DNA of 36,693 nucleotides from assembly GCA_947363565.1 (NCBI GenBank), contig CANAPP010000030.1:1-36693 (forward strand), in the 5' to 3' direction. Below, one piece after another: positions 4,483 to 23,340 of the stretch. Below the pieces are notes generated by a model, which had not been told where the DNA came from, ran no database searches, and worked only from the letters and a program-made list of their open reading frames with translations. The translations under genes and the position numbers were made by a program. The DNA is from an uncultured Lachnospiraceae bacterium. Lineage in GTDB: Bacteria > Bacillota > Clostridia > Lachnospirales > Lachnospiraceae. The first letter of the stretch is position 1; every line of letters starts with the position of its first letter.

Positions 4483-5517
4483 TCAGTGATATTTCCGCGG
4501 CAGAAAATTCCAAAGCTTTTGCACAATCTGGTTTTTCCCGGTAAATTCTTCCCGATACACCTTATCTGCCGCCCAGTATTTTTTTCCTTCTTTTTTCAGA
4601 TCATTTTCGTACCCGGTCTTTCCGTTGGCAGGGTTTACATCGAGCAGAGTGTGAAGCCCTCTCATCCCATCTACGACGGCCCGGTCGTTTTTACAATAAT
4701 TAAATGATTCCGTCTCGATGATCGGTTTATACTCCTCCATGGTATATGCCGCCGGATCACTGTCAATAAAACCGGTCGTTTTGTCCGCCCGCAGGTAATC
4801 CCACTGGGTCACAAACTGCTCCGCCGGGCCGTACTTATCCGGGCGCATCCGTATGATAAATTCCGACAAGCCGTTTTCCGCTTTCACCTTATCATTTGTC
4901 TGTCTGGTCAGCCTGCCGAGATCCTTCTTAAGCTTCCGGTTGTGAAGCCGCGAGCTTGAGCTGTAGTCCAACCGCCGCCCGGTCTTTTTCGCGTAAGCCT
5001 TAAGCTTCTGGAAATCAGTGCCGCCTCTAACATGTGTCCGGATATACTGGATATTGTGAAAATCGATATACATCCTGAACTGATGGACATAGGGGTTATT
5101 AAGGCCGCATTTTCCGTAAGCTTCGATCACTGTACGGGCGTATTCCTCCAAAAACGGGCTGTCTGGTTCCATGTCATCAGCAAACCAGTAACCGTCTCCC
5201 GCTGTCATTCCTGTGATCCTGCCGCTTACCGGGTCTGTCTCACACCGCAGATGGGTAAGCTTAAGCATCCCGTGCCCATCGATCACCCCGCCCATCTGTC
5301 GGATGGGAAGCATTGTTTTTGTCAGCGCATTATAGCCGCTTGCCGCGAACATCTTCCGATAAAGGGCAGAGCCTATCTGCTTGGCTTCCTGCTGCCAGGG
5401 AATCTGCTTTTGTTCCATAAGGCGCTCTTCAATCTCCCTCCTGCAGCAGTCAAGCGCCGCCTCATCCCAATAACCGTCTTTTTTTACTGCTGATAGATCA
5501 ATGCGTTGCAGATACAT
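4483..5517 (-). CDS. Unrecognised 344-aa protein at end of cobalamin operon
   Basis: I do not recognise this family. The protein is soluble, with no signal peptide or membrane segment, and rich in charged and aromatic residues. Conspicuous stretches are YVHQFRMYIDFHNIQYIR (about 145-162), a basic region with several Lys/Arg pairs (about 170-205), QFVTQWDYLRADKTTGFIDSD, and the Tyr/Trp-rich end WNFLPRKYH. Its ATG lies inside the last codons of cbiC (34-base overlap in another frame), so translation is probably coupled, although no clear Shine-Dalgarno is seen. Position in the cobalamin block suggests co-expression. Nothing in the sequence shows a corrin-related function, and it may be an unrelated passenger. 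Confidence 0.6.
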   Translation of the reverse strand: MYLQRIDLSAVKKDGYWDEAALDCCRREIEERLMEQKQIPWQQEAKQIGSALYRKMFAASGYNALTKTMLPIRQMGGVIDGHGMLKLTHLRCETDPVSGRITGMTAGDGYWFADDMEPDSPFLEEYARTVIEAYGKCGLNNPYVHQFRMYIDFHNIQYIRTHVRGGTDFQKLKAYAKKTGRRLDYSSSSRLHNRKLKKDLGRLTRQTNDKVKAENGLSEFIIRMRPDKYGPAEQFVTQWDYLRADKTTGFIDSDPAAYTMEEYKPIIETESFNYCKNDRAVVDGMRGLHTLLDVNPANGKTGYENDLKKEGKKYWAADKVYREEFTGKNQIVQKLWNFLPRKYH

Positions 5518-6119
5518 GCCGCTATATTACTCCCGCCTTTTCTTCCCTGTGCTACAATATACGGTACATCCTTAAGTGTCAGAACCATTTCTTTTGCCTG
5601 CACCACATTGACAAATCCCACCGGTGCCCCGATAATCAGTTTCGGCGTTATCCGCCCTTCCCGGATAAGCTCACACAGACGGATAAGCGCCGTGGGCGCA
5701 TTTCCAATGGCAAAGACCAGATCCTTTTTCAATGCGCAGGCTTTCTCCATGCTCACTGCCGCCCGCGTCCTGTTCTCTTTCGCCGCCCGCACCGCTACAT
5801 CTTCATCAGACATAAAGCAATAGACCCCGCCGCCGTACTCTGCCAGCCGTTTCTTGTTGATCCCGGCGCAGGCCATCTGCGTGTCCGTCACGATATAGGC
5901 CCCGCCGCGAAATGCAGAAAGCGCCTTTTCCACAGCATTTTCCGAAAAGACCAGATTCCTTGCATAGTCAAAATCAGCGCTGGTGTGGATGCAGCGTTTG
6001 ATGATCGGCGCCTGCTCCTTTGGAAGCTCTATCCCCCGCTCCTTTAGCTCCTGCGTGATGATTGCAAAGCTTCTGCTTTCTATCTGTGCCGGAAGCACGT
6101 TTTCTATCTCTGTTTCCAT
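5484..6119 (-). CDS. cbiC: Cobalt-precorrin-8 methylmutase
   Basis: CbiC/CobH moves the methyl group from C-11 to C-12 of (cobalt-)precorrin-8 to give (cobyr)hydrogenobyrinic acid in cobalamin synthesis. The catalytic histidine is His45 in the motif IHTSADFDY. Other family segments are ESRSFAII near the N-terminus, GGAYIVTDTQMACAGI, FAIGNAPTAL, and the C-terminal GAPVGFVNVVQAK followed by GRKGGSNIAACICNAL. The length of 211 aa from the ATG at 6119 is typical, and AGGAAAGG lies upstream. A frame from 6200, right after the cobQ stop, would add 27 unusual residues without a ribosome site. It is the third gene of a cobD-cobQ-cbiC order. Other corrin-ring genes are not in this window. Confidence 0.93.
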   Translation of the reverse strand: METEIENVLPAQIESRSFAIITQELKERGIELPKEQAPIIKRCIHTSADFDYARNLVFSENAVEKALSAFRGGAYIVTDTQMACAGINKKRLAEYGGGVYCFMSDEDVAVRAAKENRTRAAVSMEKACALKKDLVFAIGNAPTALIRLCELIREGRITPKLIIGAPVGFVNVVQAKEMVLTLKDVPYIVAQGRKGGSNIAACICNALIYQQ

Positions 6120-6203
6120 GACCGTTTTCCTTTCCTGTATCTGAAAAAACATCTCGAAGTTCTTCTGCCCGGCAAAATACCCATGCCAGGGCGAATGCAT
6201 ATC

Positions 6204-7811
6204 CTACGGCATCCCCATGATCCGGTATATCGCCGGTATGTCCAGATGCTCTCTTAAACCTGCCGCCAAAAGATCATACTGTGTCTCCTTAAACTGCCTG
6301 AAATCCATACCATCCTCCTGATTAAGCTGAAGCCCTTTCTTTTCTGCCAAGCTCCGGATAATCCCGGATGCCACCTCGTCTTTGTCAAATATGCCGTGTA
6401 CATAAGTTCCGTAGACATTTCCTGCCGACATGCCGTCGCAGCTTTTTTTTCCTGTGACCGTATCAGTAATTTCCGACATCTCTGTGACTGTACCGGCTGG
6501 TTTTGGCATTCCCGCAGCCGCATCGCCGACTTTCTTTTCATCCTCTGCCGCACTGACGCCCCTTCCCGGGCTGTCATACTCCAGGCCACCGCCTGAGACT
6601 TTTGTCTCCCCCATGTGGATTTCGTACCCTTCAAAGGAGATTCCCTGTAGCTTCCCCAGTACGCCCTGTACTTTTGTAAATGTCCCGGCAACCCGCGTCC
6701 TTACCTTCTGTCCGGCAAACACAGTCTTTGCCGCAAGAAGCCCCATTCCCCGCATGCTCCCCCCGGCTTCTAGATTTAAAGGATCATGCAGCGCCTCACC
6801 GAGCATCTGATAACCGCCGCAGATACCAAAGATGACCGTTCCCTTTCCCGCCGCCTTCAAAACCGCCGCTTCAAGCCCGTTCTGGCGCATCCAGAGCAGG
6901 TCGCCCATCGTATTTTTCGTCCCCGGTAAGATGATCATATCCGGATTCCCAAGATCCGGTGCTCTCCGGACATATCTCAGGGATACTTCCTTACGGTTTT
7001 CAAACGGCATAACGTCCGTGTAGTTCGATATCCTTGGGGTCAGGATGACCGCGATCTCTATCTGTGCCCGGTCCCTCCCTTTTCCGAAAAACCGCTCGGT
7101 CAGGCTGTCCTCCTCCTCAATCTCCACCGAAAGGAAGGGTGCGACACCCACCACCGGGATGCGTCCTCTCTCTTCCAACATCCGGATTCCTGTATCAAGG
7201 ATTGTCTTATCCCCCCGGAATTTATTGATGACCAGCCCCTTAACCCGCGTCCGCTCTTTTTCCTCAAGAAGCATGAGTGTCCCAAGGAGCTGCGCGAACA
7301 CGCCGCCCCTATCAATGTCCCCCGCAAGGAGAACCGGGGCGTCCACGAGCTCCGCCAGCCCCATATTGACGATATCCTCCGCCTTAAGGTTGATCTCCGC
7401 AGGGCTTCCCGCTCCCTCGATGACGATGATATCATACGCCTTGTCAAGCTTTTTGAATGCCCACAGGATATCCGGCACTAGCTTTTTTTTGTATGCAAAA
7501 TATTCCCGCGCGCTCATATTTCCCAGGACTTCGCCGTTTACGATCACCTGGGAGCCGGTATCATTGACCGGCTTAAGCAGCACCGGGTTCATCTCCGCCG
7601 CAGGCTCAATCCCGGCCGCCTCCGCCTGGACCGCCTGTGCTCTGCCCATCTCCAGGCCGTCCCTGGTGATAAAGGAATTAAGCGCCATATTCTGTGATTT
7701 AAAGGGCGCTACGCGGTACCCGTCCTGTCTGAATATCCGGCACAGTCCCGCGCAGAGAAAGCTTTTCCCTGCCCCCGACATCGTGCCCTGGATCATAATT
7801 GTCTTAGCCAT
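6204..7811 (-). CDS. cobQ: Cobyric acid synthase
   Basis: CobQ/CbiP (535 aa) amidates side chains b, d, e and g of adenosylcobyrinic acid a,c-diamide, using glutamine and ATP. The N-terminal dethiobiotin-synthetase-like ATPase has the P-loop variant GTMSGAGKS (9-17), then [11 protein letters not shown] and [12 protein letters not shown]. The C-terminal class I amidotransferase domain has the nucleophile Cys331 in [11 protein letters not shown] and His472 in [10 protein letters not shown]. Residues about 404-463, between EIHMGET and NVYGTYVHG, form a low-complexity insertion that looks like an extended surface loop. The start ATG has AAAGGATGG upstream and overlaps the end of cobD by 19 bases. 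Confidence 0.95.
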
Positions 7812-8866
7812 GCAACCATCCTTTCATTTTCCTCCCTCATACGCACCGCGATCCGGTAATATCCCCGGCAAAGCCCCCGGTAAGATGAACAGTCCCTGAG
7901 CAAAAAGCCGGCAGAAAGCGCCATGGCAAAAAGATCCCTCTCCTTCGCCCGAAAATCCCTGAAGAAGATATAATTCGCCTCCGAACCGTAGACCTTATAC
8001 CCAAGCTCCTTAAGCTGCCCGGCAAGGTACTCCCGCTCCCTTCGGATTACCCTTTTTGTCTCCGCCAGATAGGCGCCGCAGTTTTCAAGAGCCGCCACGC
8101 CGCCCGCCTGGGCCGGCACGGATACATTCCAGGACTGCAGCGTATCCCGCATCCGGCCAAGGAACTTCCGGTCGCTGCACATACCATATCCAAGCCTGAG
8201 CCCCGGCATGGCGAAAAGCTTCGTGAGCGCCTTGACGATGAGCATACCCGGGAAATCGTCAAGTCTGTCTTTCATCTGCGCCTTTTCCGGATCCTCCAGA
8301 AAATCCACAAAACACTCATCGATCACCAGGAAACTTCCCTGCCTGCTGCACGTTTCCGCGACCCACTCTACCAGGCCCTTCGGGATACTCTGGCCTGTCG
8401 GATTATTGGGATTGCACAGGAACACCATATCCGTCTTCGGCGTGACTGCATCAAGGAAATCCTCCGTCACCCGAAAGTTTTCCGTTTCGTTTAATTCATA
8501 ATAATTGACCTTCGCACCCACCGCCCGCAGCGCCCGTTCATATTCGGAAAATGTGGGAGAGAGGACCAGCGCCTTTTTGGGCTTCACGGCAAGCACCGCG
8601 GCAAAGATAAGCTCCGCCGCCCCATTTCCGCAGATAATATACTCCGCCGGCACACGCTCAAACTCGCCGACAGCCTCCGTCAGCCGTCCGCAGTGCATAT
8701 CCGGATACCGGCAGATCTCTCCTGCCGCCGCCCTGACTGCCACCGTCACCTCAGGCGGTGCACCTAACGGATTCACATTTACCGAAAAATCCGTCACCAC
8801 GCTTTTGCTGCGGTAGATGTCGCCGCCATGGATTTCCGCGATCAGACGCTCTTCCTTCACTGCCAT
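7793..8866 (-). CDS. cobD: Threonine-phosphate decarboxylase (CobD)
   Basis: A PLP-dependent fold-type I enzyme of 357 aa. It makes (R)-1-amino-2-propanol O-2-phosphate, the linker of the cobalamin nucleotide loop, from L-threonine phosphate. The N-terminus IHGGDIY and [10 protein letters not shown] are characteristic of CobD as opposed to histidinol-phosphate aminotransferase, its nearest relative. PLP contacts are CNPNNPTG (151-158), Asp183 in VIDECFVDF and the Schiff-base lysine, probably Lys216, in [18 protein letters not shown] use the ATG at 8866. GGGGAGG lies upstream, the length then matches the family, and longer frames to 8989 run into a decayed upstream gene. It is the first intact gene of the cobalamin block. 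No B12 riboswitch was seen upstream. Confidence 0.9.
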
Positions 8867-8937
8867 ATCCTGCACCATTCCTCCCCGCCCGCAACTTTTC
8901 GCGGACATTTTTTCTATAAGTATTCTAACAGACATGG

Positions 8938-9299
8938 TCAAAACCTGCCGTCCTCTGCAAATTTTCTCCTGGACGGATTCCCCTCGCACCGATAGATCTT
9001 CCTTTCCTTTACATCATAGACCACCGACCACACCGTATCCTTGTCAGTCCGCCGGTCGTACTGGCAGATAAAGCCGTACTCCCCTTTCAGCACGTCCGTT
9101 GCAAAGGAAAGCGCGTCACGGGATATCTCCCTTCTTGGCGCCTTCCTCCAAAACTACCTTCTCCTTAAGTCTCCGCTGTACAAACGCCTGCTGCATCGTC
9201 TGTTTCTCAATCCCGGTGAGAAAATCGCTGTTTCTGCCGAGTAACCCTCTGGCGCCTTCCCGGATCATAGCGGGCTTCCTGAAATCTTAAATGGTACAT
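8938..9299 (-). pseudogene. Decayed C45-type (AAT/IAT) acyltransferase or hydrolase
   Basis: Three fragments in different frames follow one ribosome site (AAGGAGAGC) and an ATG at 9299. The first reads MYHLRFQEARYDPGRRQ, like the usual N-terminus of C45 autoproteolytic acyltransferases (penicillin acyltransferase-like). A middle piece has GRNSDFLTGIEK. The last, ending at the stop at 8938, contains LKGEYGFICQYD and TVWSVVYDVKERKIYRCEGN, like the family C-terminus. About 360 bases remain of a normal 1 kb, so large deletions plus frameshifts are present and the autocatalytic Cys region is gone. The family call rests on remembered motif resemblance. The loss of frame is directly visible. Confidence 0.55.
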
Positions 9300-9372: not shown

Positions 9373-12072
9373 TCAAGAACTGTTTTTCCCAGATAAAGAC
9401 CGGGAGTAGGAAATCACTGCCTCATTCTTCTTCATGAACAGCAGCCCAAAAGAATCCGGCCCGCAGTTGCTTGCGATGGCTGACGAAGCCTTCTGCAGAT
9501 AGACACGCTCAAAGGGACAGTACTGCCGGACAAGATACTGAATATACTCAAGCTTCCTCTTATCCATCCCGGCATAAGTGATAAATAAGATCCGCCGGTC
9601 GATATTCTTTACATCCCGCAATACCTTGCGTACATATCTTTTCGTGACACGGGCAAAATCGCCCATCTCTACGCTCCCGACTACCATCCTGCTCTTGCGC
9701 AGTACAATAACCGGATGCAGCAGCAAAGCGTCGCACAGGATCTGTATCCGTTTCGAGATCCTGCCTGCCTGGCACATCATGTGCGTGCTGTCGATGATAA
9801 AGGCCGAAGAAATATAGTTCCTGAGCATTTTCATGGTACTTACGATTTCCTCCTTCGAGGCATGGTGTTCCGCCATATAGGCAGCATAGAGCACCATCAT
9901 CCCCAGGCTGCTGGAAAGATGCCCGGAGTCGATCACGGTTACATTTTCAAAGGACTTGGCCGCCTCAAGCGCATGCACATACCCTTTGCTGACATTTTTC
10001 GCCATCGTAATATGCAGCACATTCTGGGCTTCGGTAAGTTTATCCGCGAAAAACCGCTCATAATCCTCCGTCTCCGGAGGCTGGGAGGCACCGCTTTGCC
10101 CCGCTCCCATATGATACAGTAATTCATCTGCCTTTATCTCCAGCTCATCCAGAAACCGCCCCTTATCCGTGCAGACATAATAAGGGCATACCGCGATACT
10201 AAACTCCTTCTTTAGGGACTCTGGGAGATCACACACACTGTCCGTAGTGACCAAAAGGGGAATCCTCTTCGCCTGTTCAAAGATCAGGACATCCTTCCCG
10301 ATCTCAGCCTGCTCTGTCTCTTCGCTAAGATTCACCAGCTCCTTGGGAAGAATACTCAGCACAGCCGCCTCAAGCAGCGCACCACTGACCGGCTTTGCCA
10401 GATACCCGGCGAACCCTTCCTTGCGGTAGAGAAGCTGGTTGTCGCTTCCCGCGTTGGCCGTCAGCGCGATGACCGGCACACCCTGGCACAGCCCAGCAGC
10501 CTGCGTCTGTATCTCATGAAAGCACTGGATTCCGTCCATCTCCGGCATAAGATGATCCATCAAGATACAGTCATAGTGCTGCATCTGCGTCATCTTCAGG
10601 CATTCCGCGGCGCTGAGCGCGGTATCGATCTGGATTTTTGTGGCTGACAGAAGCTTTCTGACTACCACCAGATTCATCTCATTGTCATCTACTACAAGGA
10701 TGTGGGCATCCCGCGCCTCAAAGCTTTGCTTGTAATGCTCTCCTTCGCGGGATTTTCTGCGGGAGGTTAAGGTAAATGTCCCCAGCTCGCTTTCATCGAT
10801 GATGTCCTGCTCCAGCATAACAATGAACTTGGAGCCTCTGGTATATACACTGTTGACACTGATCTCCCCGCCCATCAGCTTCACCAACTGCTGAACGATG
10901 TTAAGGCCCAGCCCGGTACCCTCGATATGGCGGTTTTTCTCCTCATCCACCCGCCTGAAGGCATTAAAGATATAGGGAATATTCTCCTTTTTCACTCCCT
11001 GTCCCGTATCCTCTACCATATACCAGACACGCACCCGGTTAAGGTTAAGCCGCTCACATCGGACAGAGAGCGTCACCGAACCCTCGCCCGTGTATTTCAC
11101 CGCATTGTTGAGTAGATTAATAAGCACCTGCTTGATGCGGATCTCATCGCCGCAGAGCATGCTCGGAATTGAAGGATCCACCTGGAGCTTAAACTCCAGC
11201 CCCTTCTCCCGGGCTTTGATCCAGATCATATTGACGATCTCCGAAAATAACGCTCCCGTCTCATAGGAGACATTCACAATCTCCATCTTCCCGGATTTGA
11301 TCTTGGACAGATCCAGGATATCATTGATCAGCGTCAGGAGCATCTTACTGGCACCCTGGATGTTCCTGGCATTCTCCGCCACATCCTCCGAGATGTCTCC
11401 CCGCAGGATAATCTCATTTAACCCGATGATCGTATTGATGGGCGTGCGGATCTCATGGCTCATACTGGAAAAAAAATGATTCTCCGCCTTGTTTAGCTCC
11501 TCAATCTCTTTCTTCTGCCGCCTGGAAAGCTCATTCTCCTCCTCGTAAAGCTTATTCAGAAACACAAGCAGGATACTGGTCAAAAGCCCCACCAGGACAA
11601 TGGAATAGGCAGAGTCAAAAAATGACCGTTCCTGGGTGTTATTGGCAACATACTCCGGGAAACGGAAGGCGATATAATAGCAAATTTCCGTCTCTGCAAC
11701 ACATAACACATAAAACACGATCTTACGCCTTCCCGCCAGGGTAACACTGATATAGATAAAATAGATCACCAGCCATTCCGGCACACCGCTGTAAAACCCT
11801 CCTGCGGTAAAAAAACTAAACGGAAAGAGTACCAGGATAAGCAGTGCGATCACCGTAGCTCCCCGATTGATCCGATCCTTCTCGATACTGACCTTTACGA
11901 CCACCGCCATGAATATAAGGCTTAACACCAGTATTATCCAATTTGTCACGCTTTTTCCCATGGGCAGCACAAACGTCGCCGCAATCATACAGCCGCCTGT
12001 GGTTATGCGGAACATGCGCTCCCGCAGGCTTACTCTATGGTTAAAGAAAAAATCATACAGTTTTTTTATCAC
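9373..12072 (-). CDS. Hybrid histidine kinase fused to a DegV-type domain
   Basis: An 899-aa membrane kinase. The N-terminus has about six membrane segments (residues 22-175). A HisKA domain follows with phospho-accepting His206 in SSMSHEIRTPIN, then an ATPase domain with the N-box near Asn322-Asn323 and G-boxes DTGQGVK and GTGLGLNIV (about 355-395). A receiver (457-577) has acidic Asp462/463, phospho-acceptor Asp506 and Lys560. Residues about 604-881 are a complete DegV/FakB-like domain, starting LLVTTDSVCDLP and including IDSGHLSSSLGM and CQAGRISK. DegV proteins bind fatty acids. Here Ala662, Ala691 and Asn869 replace the Thr, Ser and His I recall as holding the carboxylate, while Arg771 is kept. 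The start codon is GTG, with AGGAGG 9 bases upstream. It is the last gene of a three-gene phosphorelay operon. Confidence 0.88.
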   Translation of the reverse strand: MIKKLYDFFFNHRVSLRERMFRITTGGCMIAATFVLPMGKSVTNWIILVLSLIFMAVVVKVSIEKDRINRGATVIALLILVLFPFSFFTAGGFYSGVPEWLVIYFIYISVTLAGRRKIVFYVLCVAETEICYYIAFRFPEYVANNTQERSFFDSAYSIVLVGLLTSILLVFLNKLYEEENELSRRQKKEIEELNKAENHFFSSMSHEIRTPINTIIGLNEIILRGDISEDVAENARNIQGASKMLLTLINDILDLSKIKSGKMEIVNVSYETGALFSEIVNMIWIKAREKGLEFKLQVDPSIPSMLCGDEIRIKQVLINLLNNAVKYTGEGSVTLSVRCERLNLNRVRVWYMVEDTGQGVKKENIPYIFNAFRRVDEEKNRHIEGTGLGLNIVQQLVKLMGGEISVNSVYTRGSKFIVMLEQDIIDESELGTFTLTSRRKSREGEHYKQSFEARDAHILVVDDNEMNLVVVRKLLSATKIQIDTALSAAECLKMTQMQHYDCILMDHLMPEMDGIQCFHEIQTQAAGLCQGVPVIALTANAGSDNQLLYRKEGFAGYLAKPVSGALLEAAVLSILPKELVNLSEETEQAEIGKDVLIFEQAKRIPLLVTTDSVCDLPESLKKEFSIAVCPYYVCTDKGRFLDELEIKADELLYHMGAGQSGASQPPETEDYERFFADKLTEAQNVLHITMAKNVSKGYVHALEAAKSFENVTVIDSGHLSSSLGMMVLYAAYMAEHHASKEEIVSTMKMLRNYISSAFIIDSTHMMCQAGRISKRIQILCDALLLHPVIVLRKSRMVVGSVEMGDFARVTKRYVRKVLRDVKNIDRRILFITYAGMDKRKLEYIQYLVRQYCPFERVYLQKASSAIASNCGPDSFGLLFMKKNEAVISYSRSLSGKNSS

Positions 12073-12105: not shown

Positions 12106-14565
12106 CTAAAATCCGGCAATGCTTCTGCAGACATTGTCATACATCTCCAAAAGCTTCTGATGATTCTTCTGGATATATGGGATATCCTCCTTCTTTCCCG
12201 CCTGCTCCAAAGCCTTTGCCTGCTCGGAAAGCTCTTCTGCGCCGATCGTCAGCGAAGTGCTCTTTAAAGCATGAACCTTCACCGCATAATCCGGCCAGTT
12301 TTCCGCTTCATAAAGAGAGGCGATCTCCGCCCTCTTATCCTTGCTCTGTCCGTGGAACATCCGCAGCATCTCAATATAAAAACTCTCGTCCCCACAGCAG
12401 TAATCAAGTCCAATCTGCGCGTTGATGCCGACTTCCGAAAGGACATCAAAAGGATTGAACGGCACCTCCTCTTCCTGCGGGGTACGATCCTCGGCCACAG
12501 GCTCGGCGCCGTACTGTATACTGCTCTTCGGCAGCACCCTCCTGAGTACCCGCTCTAAAACCGCACGCTCAATGGGCTTCGGGATAAACTCCGTAAATCC
12601 TTCATTCCGGAACATCTCCCTGGCACCGCTTATCGTATTGGCAGTCAGGGCGATCACCGGCAGGTCCTGATACATGCCATAGTTGATCTCCCGAATGCGC
12701 CTAAGCGTCTCCACACCGTCATAACCCGGCATCATATGATCGAGGAAAACGATGTCATAGAATGTCCTTCTGCACAGCTCCACCGCCTCTTTTCCGCTAA
12801 GGCACGTATCCACCTCTATCCCGTAGCTTCCAAGAACTCCTTTTGCCACCACAAGGTTCATCTCCTCGTCATCCACTGCCAAAGCCTTCACCCCTACACA
12901 GGAAAACGGCCTGCGCCCCGCATTCTGCGCCTCTTCAAATCCGTTCTCCTTCACCTCGCCGTTTAACAGGTTCACCACAGACAGAGCAAAAAACGGCTTC
13001 CGGATCATCAAAAGCCTGCTGTCTCTGCTCAGGACATACTCTCTTTCTGCGATCACTGCCACATGGAGCGTCTCCGCCAGCTCTTCATAATACCCGCGGC
13101 TCTCCTCATACTCGGACTGTGTGATAAATACATGGGTCAGCTTATGTGTCCGCTGCAGCTTCAAAAGCCCTTCAAAATTGTGGGCCTGATACCCTTCTAT
13201 GCCAAGCCCTTCCACAAGATGGAGGATCATCCGGTCATAATATCTCCTGATCTCATCGCTGCTGTATCTGTCCGGCCGGAAATAGCATGCAATACAAAGC
13301 TTCTCCGGATTGTTAAGCGCCATGCACGGCGTATCGTCAGCCACTCTCTGGGGAATGGTTATATGGGCATGCAGCCCCTGGTGTTCTTTGCTTTCAAAGT
13401 AGATAAACCCGTCCATAGCATGCAGAAGCCCCCTGGCAATAGGGATCCCAAGGCCAAGCCCGCCGGATAGCCGGCTGCTTCCTGTATCCGCCTGATAAAA
13501 TTCATCGTATATTTTCGTCAACTGCTCTTGTGACATCCCGATACCGGTATCATGGATATCGATAAGCAGATTGATCCCATAGCTTTCCCGCCGGAACTCA
13601 AGACAAACATTGATGCCGCCCTCCTCCGTGAATTTGATGGAATTCTCAAGGAGGATCTTAAGCACATGGGAAATCTTTTCCGCATCCCCAACAAGCACCG
13701 ACGGCATCTTAAGATCCATATCAAATACCATCTCAAGCTTCTGCCGGCTGCTCTGCACGGCAGTCATGGTGATCACATCATTGAGCACCGAAGTGATCAT
13801 ATATTCTTCCTTCGCCGGGGTCAGTGTACCCTCCACAATCTCCGTATAATCAAGGATATTGTTAATCTGGCCGGACAGCCGCTTTCCCGCCATCTGTATC
13901 GACTGTATATCCGTCTTTACTTCCGGGTCGGTCGCTTTTTCCAAGGCGACCTCACTGATTCCGATCACCATATTGATCGGCGTGCGCAACTCATGGGAGA
14001 CATTCGACAAGAAATCGGCATTCTGCCGTCCTACCGTCTCCAACTGTTCTGCTACCCGTTTGTATCTTTTCCGCGCTTCCAGTCTCCGGTTGATCCGATA
14101 TCTTGCAATTGCTGTCGCCCCTGCCGTCACAAAAATGCCGAGCATGAACCGTACGCCGTCCCGAAGCCCCAATCCGTAAATATAGATATGTAACGCAAGG
14201 AAATGATAGATCAACTGTATGACATATATAACCGCCGTCAGATAAACAAGGCTTTTCCTGTCCAGCATAGAAAAAACAAGAACCATGATGCAGGCCACCG
14301 CAGGCATATCAAAAAGAATGTCTGCATGAGCCCCGAAAAAGAAAAATTCAACCAGCATCACTCCGGCACATAAATTTTCATAAAGCGCCTCCGAGCCGAT
14401 CCTTCCGATGTGCAGACACCAGACCCCGAACGCACCGAACGCAATCAGTGGTATCATCCACATCTCCCAGGACATGATCAACGTAATCAAAGCCAGCATT
14501 GCACTAAACACACTGGCAATGCTGGCTAAAAGCAGATATTTCCCTGTCTGCCTCTCTTCTCTCAT
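12106..14565 (-). CDS. Hybrid histidine kinase with receiver and HPt domains
   Basis: An 819-aa membrane kinase. About five or six hydrophobic segments fill residues 10-155. HisKA has His191 in SNVSHELRTPIN, and the ATPase domain has the N-box around Asn308 and G-boxes DTGIGMS (339-345) and GGLGLGIPIA. Residues about 420-540 look like a degenerate receiver without a convincing phospho-Asp. A true receiver spans 559-679 with Asp565/566, Asp609 in FLDHMMPGYDG and Lys663. The C-terminal HPt domain (710-815) has His765 in VKVHALKSTSLTIGA. This is the layout of a phosphorelay hub: H191 to D609 to H765 to a separate receiver. Its ATG shares one base with the stop of the upstream CheY-like gene (TAATG), so the two are translationally coupled. 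The input signal is unknown. Confidence 0.88.
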   Translation of the reverse strand: MREERQTGKYLLLASIASVFSAMLALITLIMSWEMWMIPLIAFGAFGVWCLHIGRIGSEALYENLCAGVMLVEFFFFGAHADILFDMPAVACIMVLVFSMLDRKSLVYLTAVIYVIQLIYHFLALHIYIYGLGLRDGVRFMLGIFVTAGATAIARYRINRRLEARKRYKRVAEQLETVGRQNADFLSNVSHELRTPINMVIGISEVALEKATDPEVKTDIQSIQMAGKRLSGQINNILDYTEIVEGTLTPAKEEYMITSVLNDVITMTAVQSSRQKLEMVFDMDLKMPSVLVGDAEKISHVLKILLENSIKFTEEGGINVCLEFRRESYGINLLIDIHDTGIGMSQEQLTKIYDEFYQADTGSSRLSGGLGLGIPIARGLLHAMDGFIYFESKEHQGLHAHITIPQRVADDTPCMALNNPEKLCIACYFRPDRYSSDEIRRYYDRMILHLVEGLGIEGYQAHNFEGLLKLQRTHKLTHVFITQSEYEESRGYYEELAETLHVAVIAEREYVLSRDSRLLMIRKPFFALSVVNLLNGEVKENGFEEAQNAGRRPFSCVGVKALAVDDEEMNLVVAKGVLGSYGIEVDTCLSGKEAVELCRRTFYDIVFLDHMMPGYDGVETLRRIREINYGMYQDLPVIALTANTISGAREMFRNEGFTEFIPKPIERAVLERVLRRVLPKSSIQYGAEPVAEDRTPQEEEVPFNPFDVLSEVGINAQIGLDYCCGDESFYIEMLRMFHGQSKDKRAEIASLYEAENWPDYAVKVHALKSTSLTIGAEELSEQAKALEQAGKKEDIPYIQKNHQKLLEMYDNVCRSIAGF

Positions 14566-14924
14566 TATTCCTCAAACTCCTTTGCAACACGTTTCAGAAG
14601 CTCCTTCGGCTGGAACGGCTTCTTTAAGTAATTGACTGCTCCCAGCCTGATGGCACTCATGACGTCATCCTCATGCCCGGATGCCGTCAGGAAGATTACC
14701 GGCACCTGAACCGGATATTCCTTCATCCGCTCGAAAGTCTCAATCCCGTTCATCTCCGGCATCGCAATATCGAGAAGAACCAGATCTATCTTTTCATTTC
14801 TGAGTAGATAAAGCGCCCTCTCACCAGACTCCGCAAGAACCACTTCGTACTGCTTCTCCAGGATCATCTTCGTTCTCATCAAATTCATCGTGTCATCATC
14901 CACTACCATAATACGTTTCTGCAT
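14565..14924 (-). CDS. Single-domain CheY-like response regulator
   Basis: A stand-alone receiver of 119 aa with the acidic pair Asp9/Asp10, phospho-acceptor Asp52 in LVLLDIAMPEMNG, switch Thr near FLTASG and Lys in YLKKPF. There is no DNA-binding or enzymatic output domain. It is therefore a phospho-sink, a relay partner of the HPt domain in the next gene, or a protein-protein signalling unit like CheY or Spo0F. AGGAGG lies 7 bases upstream of the ATG. It is the promoter-proximal gene of the operon and is coupled to the HPt hybrid kinase by a one-base overlap. Confidence 0.9.
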   Translation of the reverse strand: MQKRIMVVDDDTMNLMRTKMILEKQYEVVLAESGERALYLLRNEKIDLVLLDIAMPEMNGIETFERMKEYPVQVPVIFLTASGHEDDVMSAIRLGAVNYLKKPFQPKELLKRVAKEFEE

Positions 14925-16471: not shown

Positions 16472-17395
16472 TTATTCCACATATTTTGCCTTAAGGATCG
16501 TGCCGTCCTTTTCAATCTGCATGTGAAGGATACTTTTCACATACTGGTTAAACTGGGAATATCCATAGCTTCCTATCTTAAAATCCTTGTATTTCTCATA
16601 AACTTTATTGCCGAGTACGCTAAGCTCGATGCCGTTTCTCCCTGAATCCTTCACCAGTGAGATGACGTATCTGTCGATATCTTTTTTGCGCCCCCTGTCT
16701 TCCTTCAGGGTGACTGACACAAAATTCCCCTTTTTCACCAGTTCGATCCTTCTAAATTCCTCCAGGAACTTAGACAGCATATTATAGCCGTAGCTTCGCA
16801 CGTCAAAATCCGGGTGAAGGCTCACCAGGCGGCTCCCCACCTCTCCAAGCCCAGTCTGGCGGTTGTCATCCTGGTTCTCCAAGATCATCTGCACGACCTC
16901 ATCCTCGATGCGTTCCCTGCCAAGCGACTGGGATTCTCCTGCGGTGGCTCCTATGGTCTGTTCGCTGAGCAGATTCTCCAGAATGGTGAACTTGTCACAC
17001 GCCTTGCGGAACGGTTCCGGCGTCTTGTTCTCGCCCATGCCGATGACCGTCTTCCCGCTCTCCCTGAGCCTGCTGACCAGCCTCGTAAAATCACTGTCGC
17101 TGGACACGATACAGAACCCGTCCACATCGTGGGCGTACAAAATATCCATGGCGTCAATGATCATCGCCGAGTCTGTGGCATTCTTCCCCTGGGTATAGCT
17201 GAACTGCTGGATCGGCATGATGGAATTCTTCAAAAGCTCGTCCTTCCAACTGGAATGCTGGGTATTCGTCCAGTCCCCGTATATTCTTTTGTAGGTTATA
17301 TTGCCATATTTCGATAGCTCTGTCAATATAGGCTTGATATACCTTGCCGACACATTGTCCGCGTCGATCAGTAATGCATAGCATTGTCCATCCAT
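16472..17395 (-). CDS. NYN-domain (PIN-like) protein with two LOTUS/OST-HTH domains
   Basis: The N-terminal NYN domain (about 5-145) is a PIN-like ribonuclease fold. Acidic residues sit at the expected positions: Asp11 and Asn14 in LLIDADNVS, Asp75 in NATDSAMIIDAMD, and Asp100 and Asp102 in SSDSDFTRLV. Two OST-HTH/LOTUS RNA-binding domains follow at about 160-230 and 238-306, each with the FxxxSYGYxxFxxF-like pattern. This LabA/MARF1-like architecture suggests an RNA-cleaving or RNA-sensing cytoplasmic protein. AAGGAG lies 8 bases upstream of the ATG. It is flanked upstream by a terminator, so it has its own transcript. Substrate and physiological role are unknown. Confidence 0.85.
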   Translation of the reverse strand: MDGQCYALLIDADNVSARYIKPILTELSKYGNITYKRIYGDWTNTQHSSWKDELLKNSIMPIQQFSYTQGKNATDSAMIIDAMDILYAHDVDGFCIVSSDSDFTRLVSRLRESGKTVIGMGENKTPEPFRKACDKFTILENLLSEQTIGATAGESQSLGRERIEDEVVQMILENQDDNRQTGLGEVGSRLVSLHPDFDVRSYGYNMLSKFLEEFRRIELVKKGNFVSVTLKEDRGRKKDIDRYVISLVKDSGRNGIELSVLGNKVYEKYKDFKIGSYGYSQFNQYVKSILHMQIEKDGTILKAKYVE

Positions 17396-20856: not shown

Positions 20857-23340
20857 TTACTCCATGCACCTGACCATCACCTTAAGCAGATTGCAGGTAC
20901 AGAACTGAAGATCTCCGAGACTGATGATCTCCCCGCTCTTCACCCCGTTTACGATATCCGCCACATTTTCCGCGCACCCCGGCATCTGCAGGTCATTCCC
21001 CGCCTTGATGCACCATTCGCTTGATGACCAGGGGTATTTGTCGGAAGTAAGCCCCATATAGCTTGTGTCCTGAGTCGTACACCAGTCGGTCATGATGACG
21101 CCGTCAAAGCCCCATTCATCCCTGGCAACTGCCTGCAGAAGATCATAATGGTTCGCCGCATGGATCCCGTTGATCAGATTGTAGGAAGTCATAATGGAAT
21201 ACGGGTGTGATTCCTTTACTGCAATCTCAAAGCCTTTCAGGTAGATTTCCCGGAGAGCCCGCTCGCTGATGTGGGCGTTGGTGAACATCCGGTTATCCTC
21301 CTGGTTATTGGCGGCAAAATGCTTGATGGTCGTTCCCTGTCCGCCAAGGCTCTGCACGCCCTTTGTCGCCGCCGCCGCACATTTCCCGGAAATCAGCGGG
21401 TCCTCCGAGTAATATTCAAAATTTCTTCCGCACAAAGGATTCCGGTGGATGTTCATCCCTGGGGCAAGCCACAGGTGGATGTGGTACTTTTTCATCTCCC
21501 TGCCGACAATTTCCCCCATCCGCTCAAGGAACGCCGTATCCCAGGACTGCGCCAGCGTTGTCGCAATAGGGATTGCCGTACAGAACTGGTAATAATCCAC
21601 TGCATCCGCCGGGGTATCTTCCGGAAACGGCATACGGTTCATGCCGAAAATCTCGCCGCCGGGCAGCACCTTCCCCTCCTTCGTTGCCTTGAAATGAGGC
21701 TGGAGCCTCAACCCTGCCGGCCCGTCCGCTAAAATTAGCGGGAAGATTCCCCGTTCTTTAAAAAGATGGGAGCTTGTCTGCCCCGCCGCTCCCGGCACTA
21801 AGGTCGCGGCATTTCCCACCACCTGGGTTCCATTGTCTGTCCGTCTCTCGATACCGACGCAAAGATCTGCCATCTCTTCTACCGTAAGCTGCGCCGCAAG
21901 CTCCTCTAAAGCAGCACGCCCTTCCTTTACATCCGCAAGGGTCAGGCATTTCCCCGGATTCCTGTCCACAAGGACCGGACGCTCTTTATATTTTCCGGCC
22001 GGTGCTTCACTGATTCCGGCTCGCTCTTCGCAGCTTCCGCCCGGCGCTTTTACCAGGCGGTTGTCAAGCTGGCTTGTGATGGTCTTCTCCTCGATCCGCA
22101 CAGTTCCCGCTGTCTCCGTGTGGGCCGAATCCGCTCCGACACGAATCACATACTCGCCTGGCTCTAACACCCAAGCCACGTCTTTTGTGCTGTAGGACGC
22201 CATATCGGTACGCGCAAAACTTATCGTAAGCCTTTCTGTCTCACCCGGCTTTAAAAGCCTGGTCTTTTTAAACGCCGCCAGCTCCTGGTAAGGTTTCAAA
22301 AGCTCACCCTCCGGCGCGGAATAATAAACCTGGACGACCTGCCTGCCAGGAAATTTGCTACCTGTATTGGTCACCGCTATCTCCAGGGACATATCCTGCG
22401 CACAAAATTTCTCCGTCTTTATCGCAAACTCCGTATAGCTCTTCCCGTAACCAAAGCAGTAGGACGGCTCGATCTTACGCGTGTCAAAATACCGGTATCC
22501 CACAAAGATATCCTCTGTGTAATACTCGTCATCCACATTGCCGTTGTTGTGGCTGAAATCTTTTGCGGACGGATAATCACCGTAATCCTTCGCCCATGTA
22601 TCGGTGAGCCTTCCCGAAGGGTATGTCTTTCCCGTCAGCACATCTCCTACCACGAGCCCTCCGATATTGCCGAGCTGCCCCATGAGGACGACGGCATTAA
22701 GCCCGGGGATCTCCTTTATCGCCGTAGTGTCGATCACCCCGCCGATATTCAGCAGCAGGATAGTCTTTTCATAATTTTCCGCCAGAAACCGGATATTCTC
22801 AAGCTCCCTGTCCGTCAGCAGATAATCGCCTTTCCGGCATTCTCTGTCCTTCCCCTCCCCGGAATTTCTTGAAAGCACATAGACTGCTGTCTGCGCATCT
22901 TCTTTCTTCCCGATCCGCGGCGCCTGCGGCTCTTCAAAAGGGCGCTCAAAGAGAACCATGTGCACCGGCACACCTCTTTCCTCCATCTCCCGCTCCACAC
23001 TCTCCATATACGCTTTCTCTGCCCGGAAAAGCTCCGCGTCAAACTGATCCAGCCATTCTCCGCCAAGAATCTCAAAGCCGGCAGCCAAAAGTCCCTGCTC
23101 TACAGGGATATTCTCCCGCGTGTTCACATCCCCGGAACCGGTGCCGCCCTTTACGGTGTGCCTTGCCCCGTTTCCGTACAGCGCCACCTTCCGCTCAGTA
23201 CTTCCGAGGGGAAGTGCACCATCATTTTCCAAAAGCACCATGCATTCCCCTGCAAGTCGCCTTACTGTCTGCTGATTCTCCCGCTCAAGAGACGTGACTT
23301 CATCCGTCCTTAATGCAAAAAATTGTTCCATCTCCATCAT
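20857..23340 (-). CDS. Glycoside hydrolase family 3 with swapped domain order
   Basis: An 827-aa beta-glycosidase. In ordinary GH3 enzymes the catalytic barrel comes first. Here the alpha/beta sandwich (about 25-290, with KVALYGNGARHTVKGGTGSGDVN) and the fibronectin-like domain (about 330-425, VVQVYYSAPEGELLKPYQEL) precede the barrel (about 480-800). The nucleophile is probably Asp752 in FDGVIMTDW, and the substrate-binding KHFAANNQE and GRNFEYYSEDP motifs are present. This inverted order is known from rumen Clostridia beta-glucosidases. No signal peptide, so cytoplasmic. AAGGAGAGC precedes the ATG, which starts 15 bases after the potassium-channel gene ktrA. The specificity (glucose, xylose or others) is not readable. 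Confidence 0.9.
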   Translation of the reverse strand: MMEMEQFFALRTDEVTSLERENQQTVRRLAGECMVLLENDGALPLGSTERKVALYGNGARHTVKGGTGSGDVNTRENIPVEQGLLAAGFEILGGEWLDQFDAELFRAEKAYMESVEREMEERGVPVHMVLFERPFEEPQAPRIGKKEDAQTAVYVLSRNSGEGKDRECRKGDYLLTDRELENIRFLAENYEKTILLLNIGGVIDTTAIKEIPGLNAVVLMGQLGNIGGLVVGDVLTGKTYPSGRLTDTWAKDYGDYPSAKDFSHNNGNVDDEYYTEDIFVGYRYFDTRKIEPSYCFGYGKSYTEFAIKTEKFCAQDMSLEIAVTNTGSKFPGRQVVQVYYSAPEGELLKPYQELAAFKKTRLLKPGETERLTISFARTDMASYSTKDVAWVLEPGEYVIRVGADSAHTETAGTVRIEEKTITSQLDNRLVKAPGGSCEERAGISEAPAGKYKERPVLVDRNPGKCLTLADVKEGRAALEELAAQLTVEEMADLCVGIERRTDNGTQVVGNAATLVPGAAGQTSSHLFKERGIFPLILADGPAGLRLQPHFKATKEGKVLPGGEIFGMNRMPFPEDTPADAVDYYQFCTAIPIATTLAQSWDTAFLERMGEIVGREMKKYHIHLWLAPGMNIHRNPLCGRNFEYYSEDPLISGKCAAAATKGVQSLGGQGTTIKHFAANNQEDNRMFTNAHISERALREIYLKGFEIAVKESHPYSIMTSYNLINGIHAANHYDLLQAVARDEWGFDGVIMTDWCTTQDTSYMGLTSDKYPWSSSEWCIKAGNDLQMPGCAENVADIVNGVKSGEIISLGDLQFCTCNLLKVMVRCME

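Follow-up and report, generated by a model that had tools for sequence, protein, structure and literature searches.

A DegV domain with an altered lipid pocket fused to a hybrid histidine kinase in Lachnospiraceae

The 36,693-nucleotide stretch of DNA analysed here (the window), from an uncultured Lachnospiraceae bacterium, encodes a membrane hybrid histidine kinase that terminates in a DegV domain (HK-REC-DegV). DegV/FakB proteins are lipid carriers that serve FakA. The pocket of the fused domain is altered, and the altered pocket is itself conserved across fused domains. With moderate confidence, we propose that the DegV domain no longer partners FakA and serves a two-kinase phosphorelay as its ligand-responsive module in the cytoplasm. 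Four features together favor this reading: the domain is movable, its altered pocket is conserved, the contact with FakA is lost and the gene cassette is tight. The architecture, its conservation, the residue changes, the cassette and a complementary distribution of Hpt domains are read from sequence, and conservation suggests that the DegV domain may bind a ligand. The gene and its domains are as follows.

9373-12072, minus strand: HK-REC-DegV gene, 899 amino acids, GTG start, stop codon included
11518-12072, minus strand: N-terminal membrane part, residues 1-185 (hydropathy)
11290-11481, minus strand: HisKA, residues 198-261, with phospho-acceptor His206 (Pfam)
10807-11151, minus strand: HATPase_c, residues 308-422, with N, G1 and G2 boxes (Pfam)
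10360-10701, minus strand: receiver (Response_reg), residues 458-571, with Asp506 and Lys560 (Pfam)
9430-10254, minus strand: DegV domain, residues 607-881 (Pfam PF02645 and fold searches)

The gene is a single open reading frame in the window, without an internal stop. Hydropathy analysis places four or five hydrophobic stretches within residues 1-180 of the protein, and no Pfam sensor domain in this membrane part scored above its own cut-off. The features of a hybrid histidine kinase are all present, namely the phospho-accepting His, the N, G1 and G2 boxes and the receiver Asp; among 130 aligned fused proteins, the His206 position is occupied by His in 129, with one gap, and the Asp506 position by Asp in every one. 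The DegV match is near-complete (profile positions 3-279 of 280, E = 5.8e-37, 128 bits vs a cut-off of 27), and its boundaries agree with a preliminary description, made from the letters of the window, that had placed such a domain at about residues 604-881 behind the receiver of a membrane hybrid kinase. Structure prediction, suggested there as a check, supports the fold only: fold searches recovered the DegV fold, and the model, for which only close sequences (71-87% identity with the window) were aligned, is weak, at a mean pLDDT of 66. The DegV part is under purifying selection, with dN/dS of 0.08-0.10 between the window and four orthologues from the same genus (rough values, at dS of 0.9-2.1). 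In its HisKA-HATPase-REC core and key residues, the protein is like the hybrid kinases BarA, TorS and ArcB, but it ends in DegV, its Hpt is supplied by an adjoining hybrid kinase, and it scores far below the cut-offs of those named families.

Two genes joined by an assembly or frameshift error, one of the cases that the preliminary description had named as fatal to its proposal, have almost no chance of explaining this protein. We found no support for such an error in the window, and a whole-protein search of 61 genomes recovered full-length orthologues as one open frame in 5 of 5 other genomes of the genus (81-88% identical), so that their presence in independent genomes, with the single frame of the window, rules the artefact out. 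The same search returned a full-length orthologue in another genus (G018, 77% identical) and matches at 40-52% identity in further genera. Also at odds with an artefact is the outcome of a search with DegV alone across 397 genomes of the family, which gave a match at 1e-20 in 155; in at least 69 of the 397, by a hand count of the matches listed, the match lies inside an open frame of at least 480 amino acids, frame length being a proxy for fusion and the architecture being read only for fetched loci. One genome (G358) has at least five such places, the most per genome among the matches listed. At E 1e-50, a profile of the fused domain had matches in 30 of the 246 genomes searched in the order, a set that takes in the family; among the 14 matched genomes outside the family, one has a long frame (G624, 924 amino acids) and 13 have frames of stand-alone size. 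A scan of named contigs found at least 589 stretches, at least 584 of them confirmed, and the best 80 of these loci (71-87% identical) come mostly from records and metagenome bins of Lachnospiraceae, with some labelled Oscillospiraceae, Clostridia or other genera; Schaedlerella arabinosiphila DSM 106076 and Acetatifactor muris DSM 23669 are among the sources. The HK-REC-DegV architecture is already visible in domain databases. No description of a DegV-histidine kinase fusion was found in the open-licence full-text literature; two papers name DegV as a neighbor gene or as one gene in a deleted region (PMC3146951, PMC12688256).

According to two reports on FakB1 (PMC8892158, PMC9136124), the carboxylate of the fatty acid is held by a network of Thr62, Ser95, Ser171 and His270, Arg173 is required for catalysis, Arg205 serves FakA and membrane binding, and both Arg residues are termed completely conserved. 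We mapped these positions by HMM-HMM (profile-profile) alignment of 70 fused DegV domains, the window included and one incomplete sequence (L044) left out, against 35 stand-alone domains, of which 33 came from loci of this bacterial family, the own genome among them, and two from the PDB. Apart from the own-genome and PDB sequences, these controls are the best-scoring PF02645 matches, and the set therefore leans to canonical carriers. Among the fused domains, 20, counting the window, are close kin of the window (70% or more). The equivalent residues in the window are listed below.

10084-10086, minus strand: Ser663, equivalent of FakB1 Thr62 (HMM-HMM and pairwise alignments)
10000-10002, minus strand: Ala691, equivalent of FakB1 Ser95 (HMM-HMM alignment)
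9760-9762, minus strand: Arg771, equivalent of FakB1 Arg173 (HMM-HMM alignment)
9664-9666, minus strand: Met803, equivalent of FakB1 Arg205 (HMM-HMM alignment), the Arg that docks onto FakA according to PMC8892158 and PMC9136124
9466-9468, minus strand: Asn869, equivalent of FakB1 His270 (HMM-HMM alignment)

The carboxylate network is thus incomplete in the window, with Ser663 retaining a hydroxyl and Ala691 and Asn869 departing from FakB1, and the docking Arg is Met803. At the His270 position, the fused domains have Asn in 65 and His in 2 of 70, in contrast to 33 His and 2 Tyr among the 35 stand-alone domains. The Ser95 position is Ala in 44 fused domains, Ser in 15, Thr in 7 and Gly in 4 (Ser in 31 of 35 stand-alone), and the Thr62 position is Ser in 50 and Thr in 10 (34 Thr and 1 Ser among stand-alone). 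Ser171 corresponds to Ala769, at a site that is variable in fused domains and Gly in 34 of 35 stand-alone ones. Several features are particular to the fused set: His786 replaces the Lys that precedes a conserved Pro (His in 59 of 70, Lys in 33 of 35 stand-alone), and two conserved motifs, DSGHLSSG and QKAS...NCGPG, contain His718 (42 of 70), Ser720 (65 of 70) and Cys870 (52 of 70). With the 20 close kin removed, Asn869 is matched in 45 of the remaining 50, Ser or Thr at position 663 in 40, Ala691 in 24 and Cys870 in 32. The pocket is not uniform, since the Ser95 site varies and the Arg173 site is Arg in only 33 of 70 fused domains, compared with 35 of 35 stand-alone ones; because even among the 20 close kin of the window only 9 have it, the retention of Arg771 carries little weight.

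These alignments modify the residue assignments made earlier. The pairings of the first Ser of the ISS motif with Ala691 and of the His of HxGPG with Asn869 hold, whereas the Thr of TSQP, previously paired with Ala662, has its true counterpart in Ser663; pairwise alignments to 2dt8, 4x9x and 1pzx concur with the profile alignment, and only that to 6mh9, offset by one, would favor Ala662. As to whether other fused proteins share the substitutions, a check suggested earlier, Asn is found in 65 of 70 and Ala in 44 of 70; the Thr site keeps Ser or Thr in 60 of 70. The Arg of GGRI is present in the window as had been said, but is no rule in the family. The loss of the FakA-docking Arg, the Hpt-bearing partner kinase and the conserved three-gene cassette had been overlooked.

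That the domain is an ordinary FakB, merely tethered to a kinase and delivering fatty acids to FakA, would fit the DegV fold, the retained network hydroxyl and Arg771, and the presence of FakA in the own genome. We nonetheless think it very unlikely, because the Arg205 position, key to FakA binding according to PMC8892158 and PMC9136124, is Met803 in the window and Arg in only 1 of 70 fused domains (33 of 35 stand-alone), and the catalytic Arg173 site is not Arg in 37 of 70. The window protein differs from FakB1 and FakB2 (PDB 4x9x, 2dt8, 5uto) in its fusion to a hybrid kinase, in the changes Ser95 to Ala691, His270 to Asn869 and Arg205 to Met803, and in that its sequence gives no sign of a DegV domain that presents substrate to FakA. 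The own genome encodes, besides FakA, four other DegVs, so that the carrier job can be covered elsewhere, which we count in favor of a sensor.

Directly upstream of the kinase gene lie two further genes of the cassette.

12106-14565, minus strand: partner hybrid kinase HK-REC-Hpt, 819 amino acids, with HisKA, HATPase, receiver and Hpt (Pfam)
12130-12372, minus strand: Hpt domain of the partner kinase, residues 732-812 (Pfam)
14565-14924, minus strand: single-domain CheY-like response regulator, 119 amino acids (Pfam)

The order is response regulator, HK-REC-Hpt, HK-REC-DegV. The regulator and partner kinase genes overlap by one base, and the latter ends 33 bases upstream of the HK-REC-DegV gene, so that the kinase, receiver, Hpt and response regulator of a multi-step phosphorelay are encoded together. 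The own genome has three Hpt matches, in the partner kinase, in a CheA-like 707-amino-acid frame with CheW and in a 117-amino-acid frame. About 150 residues of the partner (12106-14565) between HATPase and receiver have no Pfam match at E 0.001 and are perhaps a degenerate receiver.

Among the best 80 loci, a kinase lies directly upstream of the DegV gene in 67 and bears an Hpt in 66 of these, the exception (L218) being a fragment without Hpt. A contig edge cuts 9 loci, and the gene is masked by a longer antisense ORF in one (L222). Another ORF stands upstream in three: L197 is a 3-kb contig, and in L199 and L224 only small ORFs separate the regulator from the DegV kinase. A receiver-only gene is nearby in 61 of the 70 counted loci. 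In 60 diverse loci, the Hpt is distributed in a complementary manner. Where the DegV protein lacks an Hpt and a kinase is directly upstream, the neighbor has one in 38 of 42 cases (35 fused, 3 stand-alone); where an Hpt is part of the DegV protein, the adjoining kinase lacks one in 10 of 10 (9 fused and one partial frame, L267). In the four loci with an Hpt in neither protein, it is found in the next gene up (L110), in an ORF downstream (L118 and L295) or as a 123-amino-acid Hpt-like ORF (L111, whose DegV frame reaches the contig end). Another ORF is upstream in five loci (L112, L114, L117, L258, L279), and three are cut. Exactly one Hpt ORF occurs in 53 of the 60 neighborhoods, none in three that are all at contig edges (L117, L269, L284), and more than one in four (L115, L260, L273, L282). 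Fisher's test on 51 loci (L110 left out) gives p = 2e-8 with kinship ignored, a value that overstates the case because two changes on the tree can suffice to explain Hpt presence and the loci are not independent.

We built a quick tree of 87 DegV domains with the pocket columns removed, SH-aLRT support and the root set by hand on canonical carriers. It leaves out the rows from 24 near-copy or repeat loci, includes 14 of the 33 stand-alone rows and has L065 and L074 assigned to the fused group by hand. One group (support 99) unites twelve stand-alone DegVs, which retain Thr, Ser, both Arg residues and His and have a kinase within short flanks in 1 of 12 loci (L248), with a 59-row group (support 99) of mostly Asn-type domains. 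Inside the latter, 56 fused rows form one side of a branch (SH-aLRT 98), outside which stand three stand-alone DegVs (L090, L091 and L095) that have the Asn and lack Arg205, with Ser95 still there; their genes are each directly downstream of an HK-REC-Hpt gene (L108, L107 and L109, respectively). Because these three stand alone yet are changed and kinase-adjacent, the residue change and the kinase neighborhood likely came first and fusion later, with the forks among groups not fully resolved. The forms suggest a series from stand-alone carrier through stand-alone protein beside a kinase to fused domain, and an entire clade of DegV domains seems to have been recruited into signal transduction.

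HK-REC-DegV is the commonest variant among the loci examined. Variants of 1115-1166 amino acids have DegV followed by Hpt; in L070/L111, DegV comes first, before a part that resembles the membrane region of the window protein; in L106, it also comes first, followed by dCache, HK, REC and Hpt; and in L086/L112, HATPase and DegV were detected and HisKA and receiver were not. C-terminal, before Hpt, N-terminal or in a separate gene, these are places expected of a regulatory module. The DegV-HATPase protein of L112 (7790-10375) is possibly a decayed or non-catalytic kinase. In L115 (3450-13593), two tandem HK-REC-DegV genes lie between two different HK-REC-Hpt genes, one of which adjoins a lone receiver.

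The nearly constant presence of an adjoining partner kinase, the occurrence of DegV as a stand-alone neighbor of a kinase and the alteration of two carboxylate-network positions would also suit an interaction module that has no ligand and holds the two kinases, or the regulator, together, and the conserved pocket positions could serve protein contacts instead. We regard such a module as improbable, since the altered positions are conserved in the fused family and a dead pocket would not need that. The preliminary description had left the choice between a different, uncharged ligand and a pure interaction module; the conservation of the changed pocket favors a changed ligand or head group, but an uncharged one is not implied, because one hydroxyl remains and a carboxylate could still be held by Asn, Ser and His.

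For a ligand-responsive module, the DegV pocket would take up a hydrophobic or acyl-type ligand inside the cell, and the bound ligand would shift the kinase/phosphatase balance of its own HK-REC. Phosphoryl groups might then reach the response regulator from HK-REC-DegV by way of the partner kinase's Hpt. This regulator is CheY-like in the clade of the window; near related cassettes, regulators often carry HD-GYP or GGDEF. The direction of the signal, the route of phosphotransfer and the output are as we infer them from this arrangement. The earlier proposal of a kinase that senses acyl chains from the cytoplasm fits as regards a kinase with a cytoplasmic DegV module; the acyl chain as ligand, and a role in input rather than output, would be inferences beyond that.

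The usual place of DegV behind the receiver, where output domains often sit, counts against a sensor. It could be that phosphorylation of the receiver gates a lipid-binding or carrier domain, and that the kinase controls acyl capture or release, as would agree with the order of domains in most members examined and with a response regulator that, in the window, has no effector domain. This arrangement is unlikely in our estimate: the FakA-docking Arg is missing in 69 of 70 fused domains, DegV is also found before the membrane part, at the very start of the protein and between receiver and Hpt, and regulators near many related cassettes carry effector domains. Near 25 of 57 diverse loci there is a regulator with HD-GYP and/or GGDEF (Pfam on selected ones), near 16 a receiver only and near 4 a receiver with Hpt, and in 12 none was found within four genes on each side. 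Because the count extended up to four genes away in each direction, some of these regulators may lie outside the cassette, and pieces of a truncated partner kinase (e.g. L117, L258) may have been counted as a receiver.

The HD-GYP and GGDEF regulators suggest that the output of the cassette may be behavior or c-di-GMP. CheW and MCP genes are upstream of the cassette in 7 of the 60 diverse loci (L276, L280, L285, L286, L289, L290 and L294; Pfam run on L286 and L289), directly so in six, with two receiver genes intervening in L280. A CheA-like HATPase-CheW gene precedes the CheW and MCP genes in L286. The FliG, CheW and five GGDEF matches of the own genome are in line with motility or c-di-GMP as a possible output. 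We advance tentatively, as possible rather than probable, the broader idea that histidine kinases have gained in DegV a new class of input domain in the cytoplasm, in which lineage-specific, re-specified lipid or acyl sensors of gut Lachnospiraceae would signal the lipid state of the cell interior via a shared Hpt to c-di-GMP or chemotaxis. If lipid is indeed sensed, gut bacteria would have in this family a two-component link between membrane lipid or acyl pools and behavior, and its natural variants would be ready for a ligand search. Also comparable is DhaQ (PDB 2iu4), the DhaK-like protein encoded in the dha operon of Lactococcus: it binds dihydroxyacetone, its target is a transcription factor, and it is, unlike the window protein, not joined to a histidine kinase.

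Just downstream of HK-REC-DegV, at 5484-8989, are the cobalamin genes CbiC, CobQ and CobD-like; a link of the cassette to these, or to RlmD upstream, was rejected, no CobD- or RlmD-tagged ORF being present in flanks of up to 6 kb at the best 80 loci. Elsewhere in the window, a GH3 glycosidase (20857-23340) has a swapped domain order, with the C-terminal domain first, then an Fn3-like domain and the N-terminal domain, and a NYN domain is fused to an OST-HTH/LOTUS domain (16472-17395).
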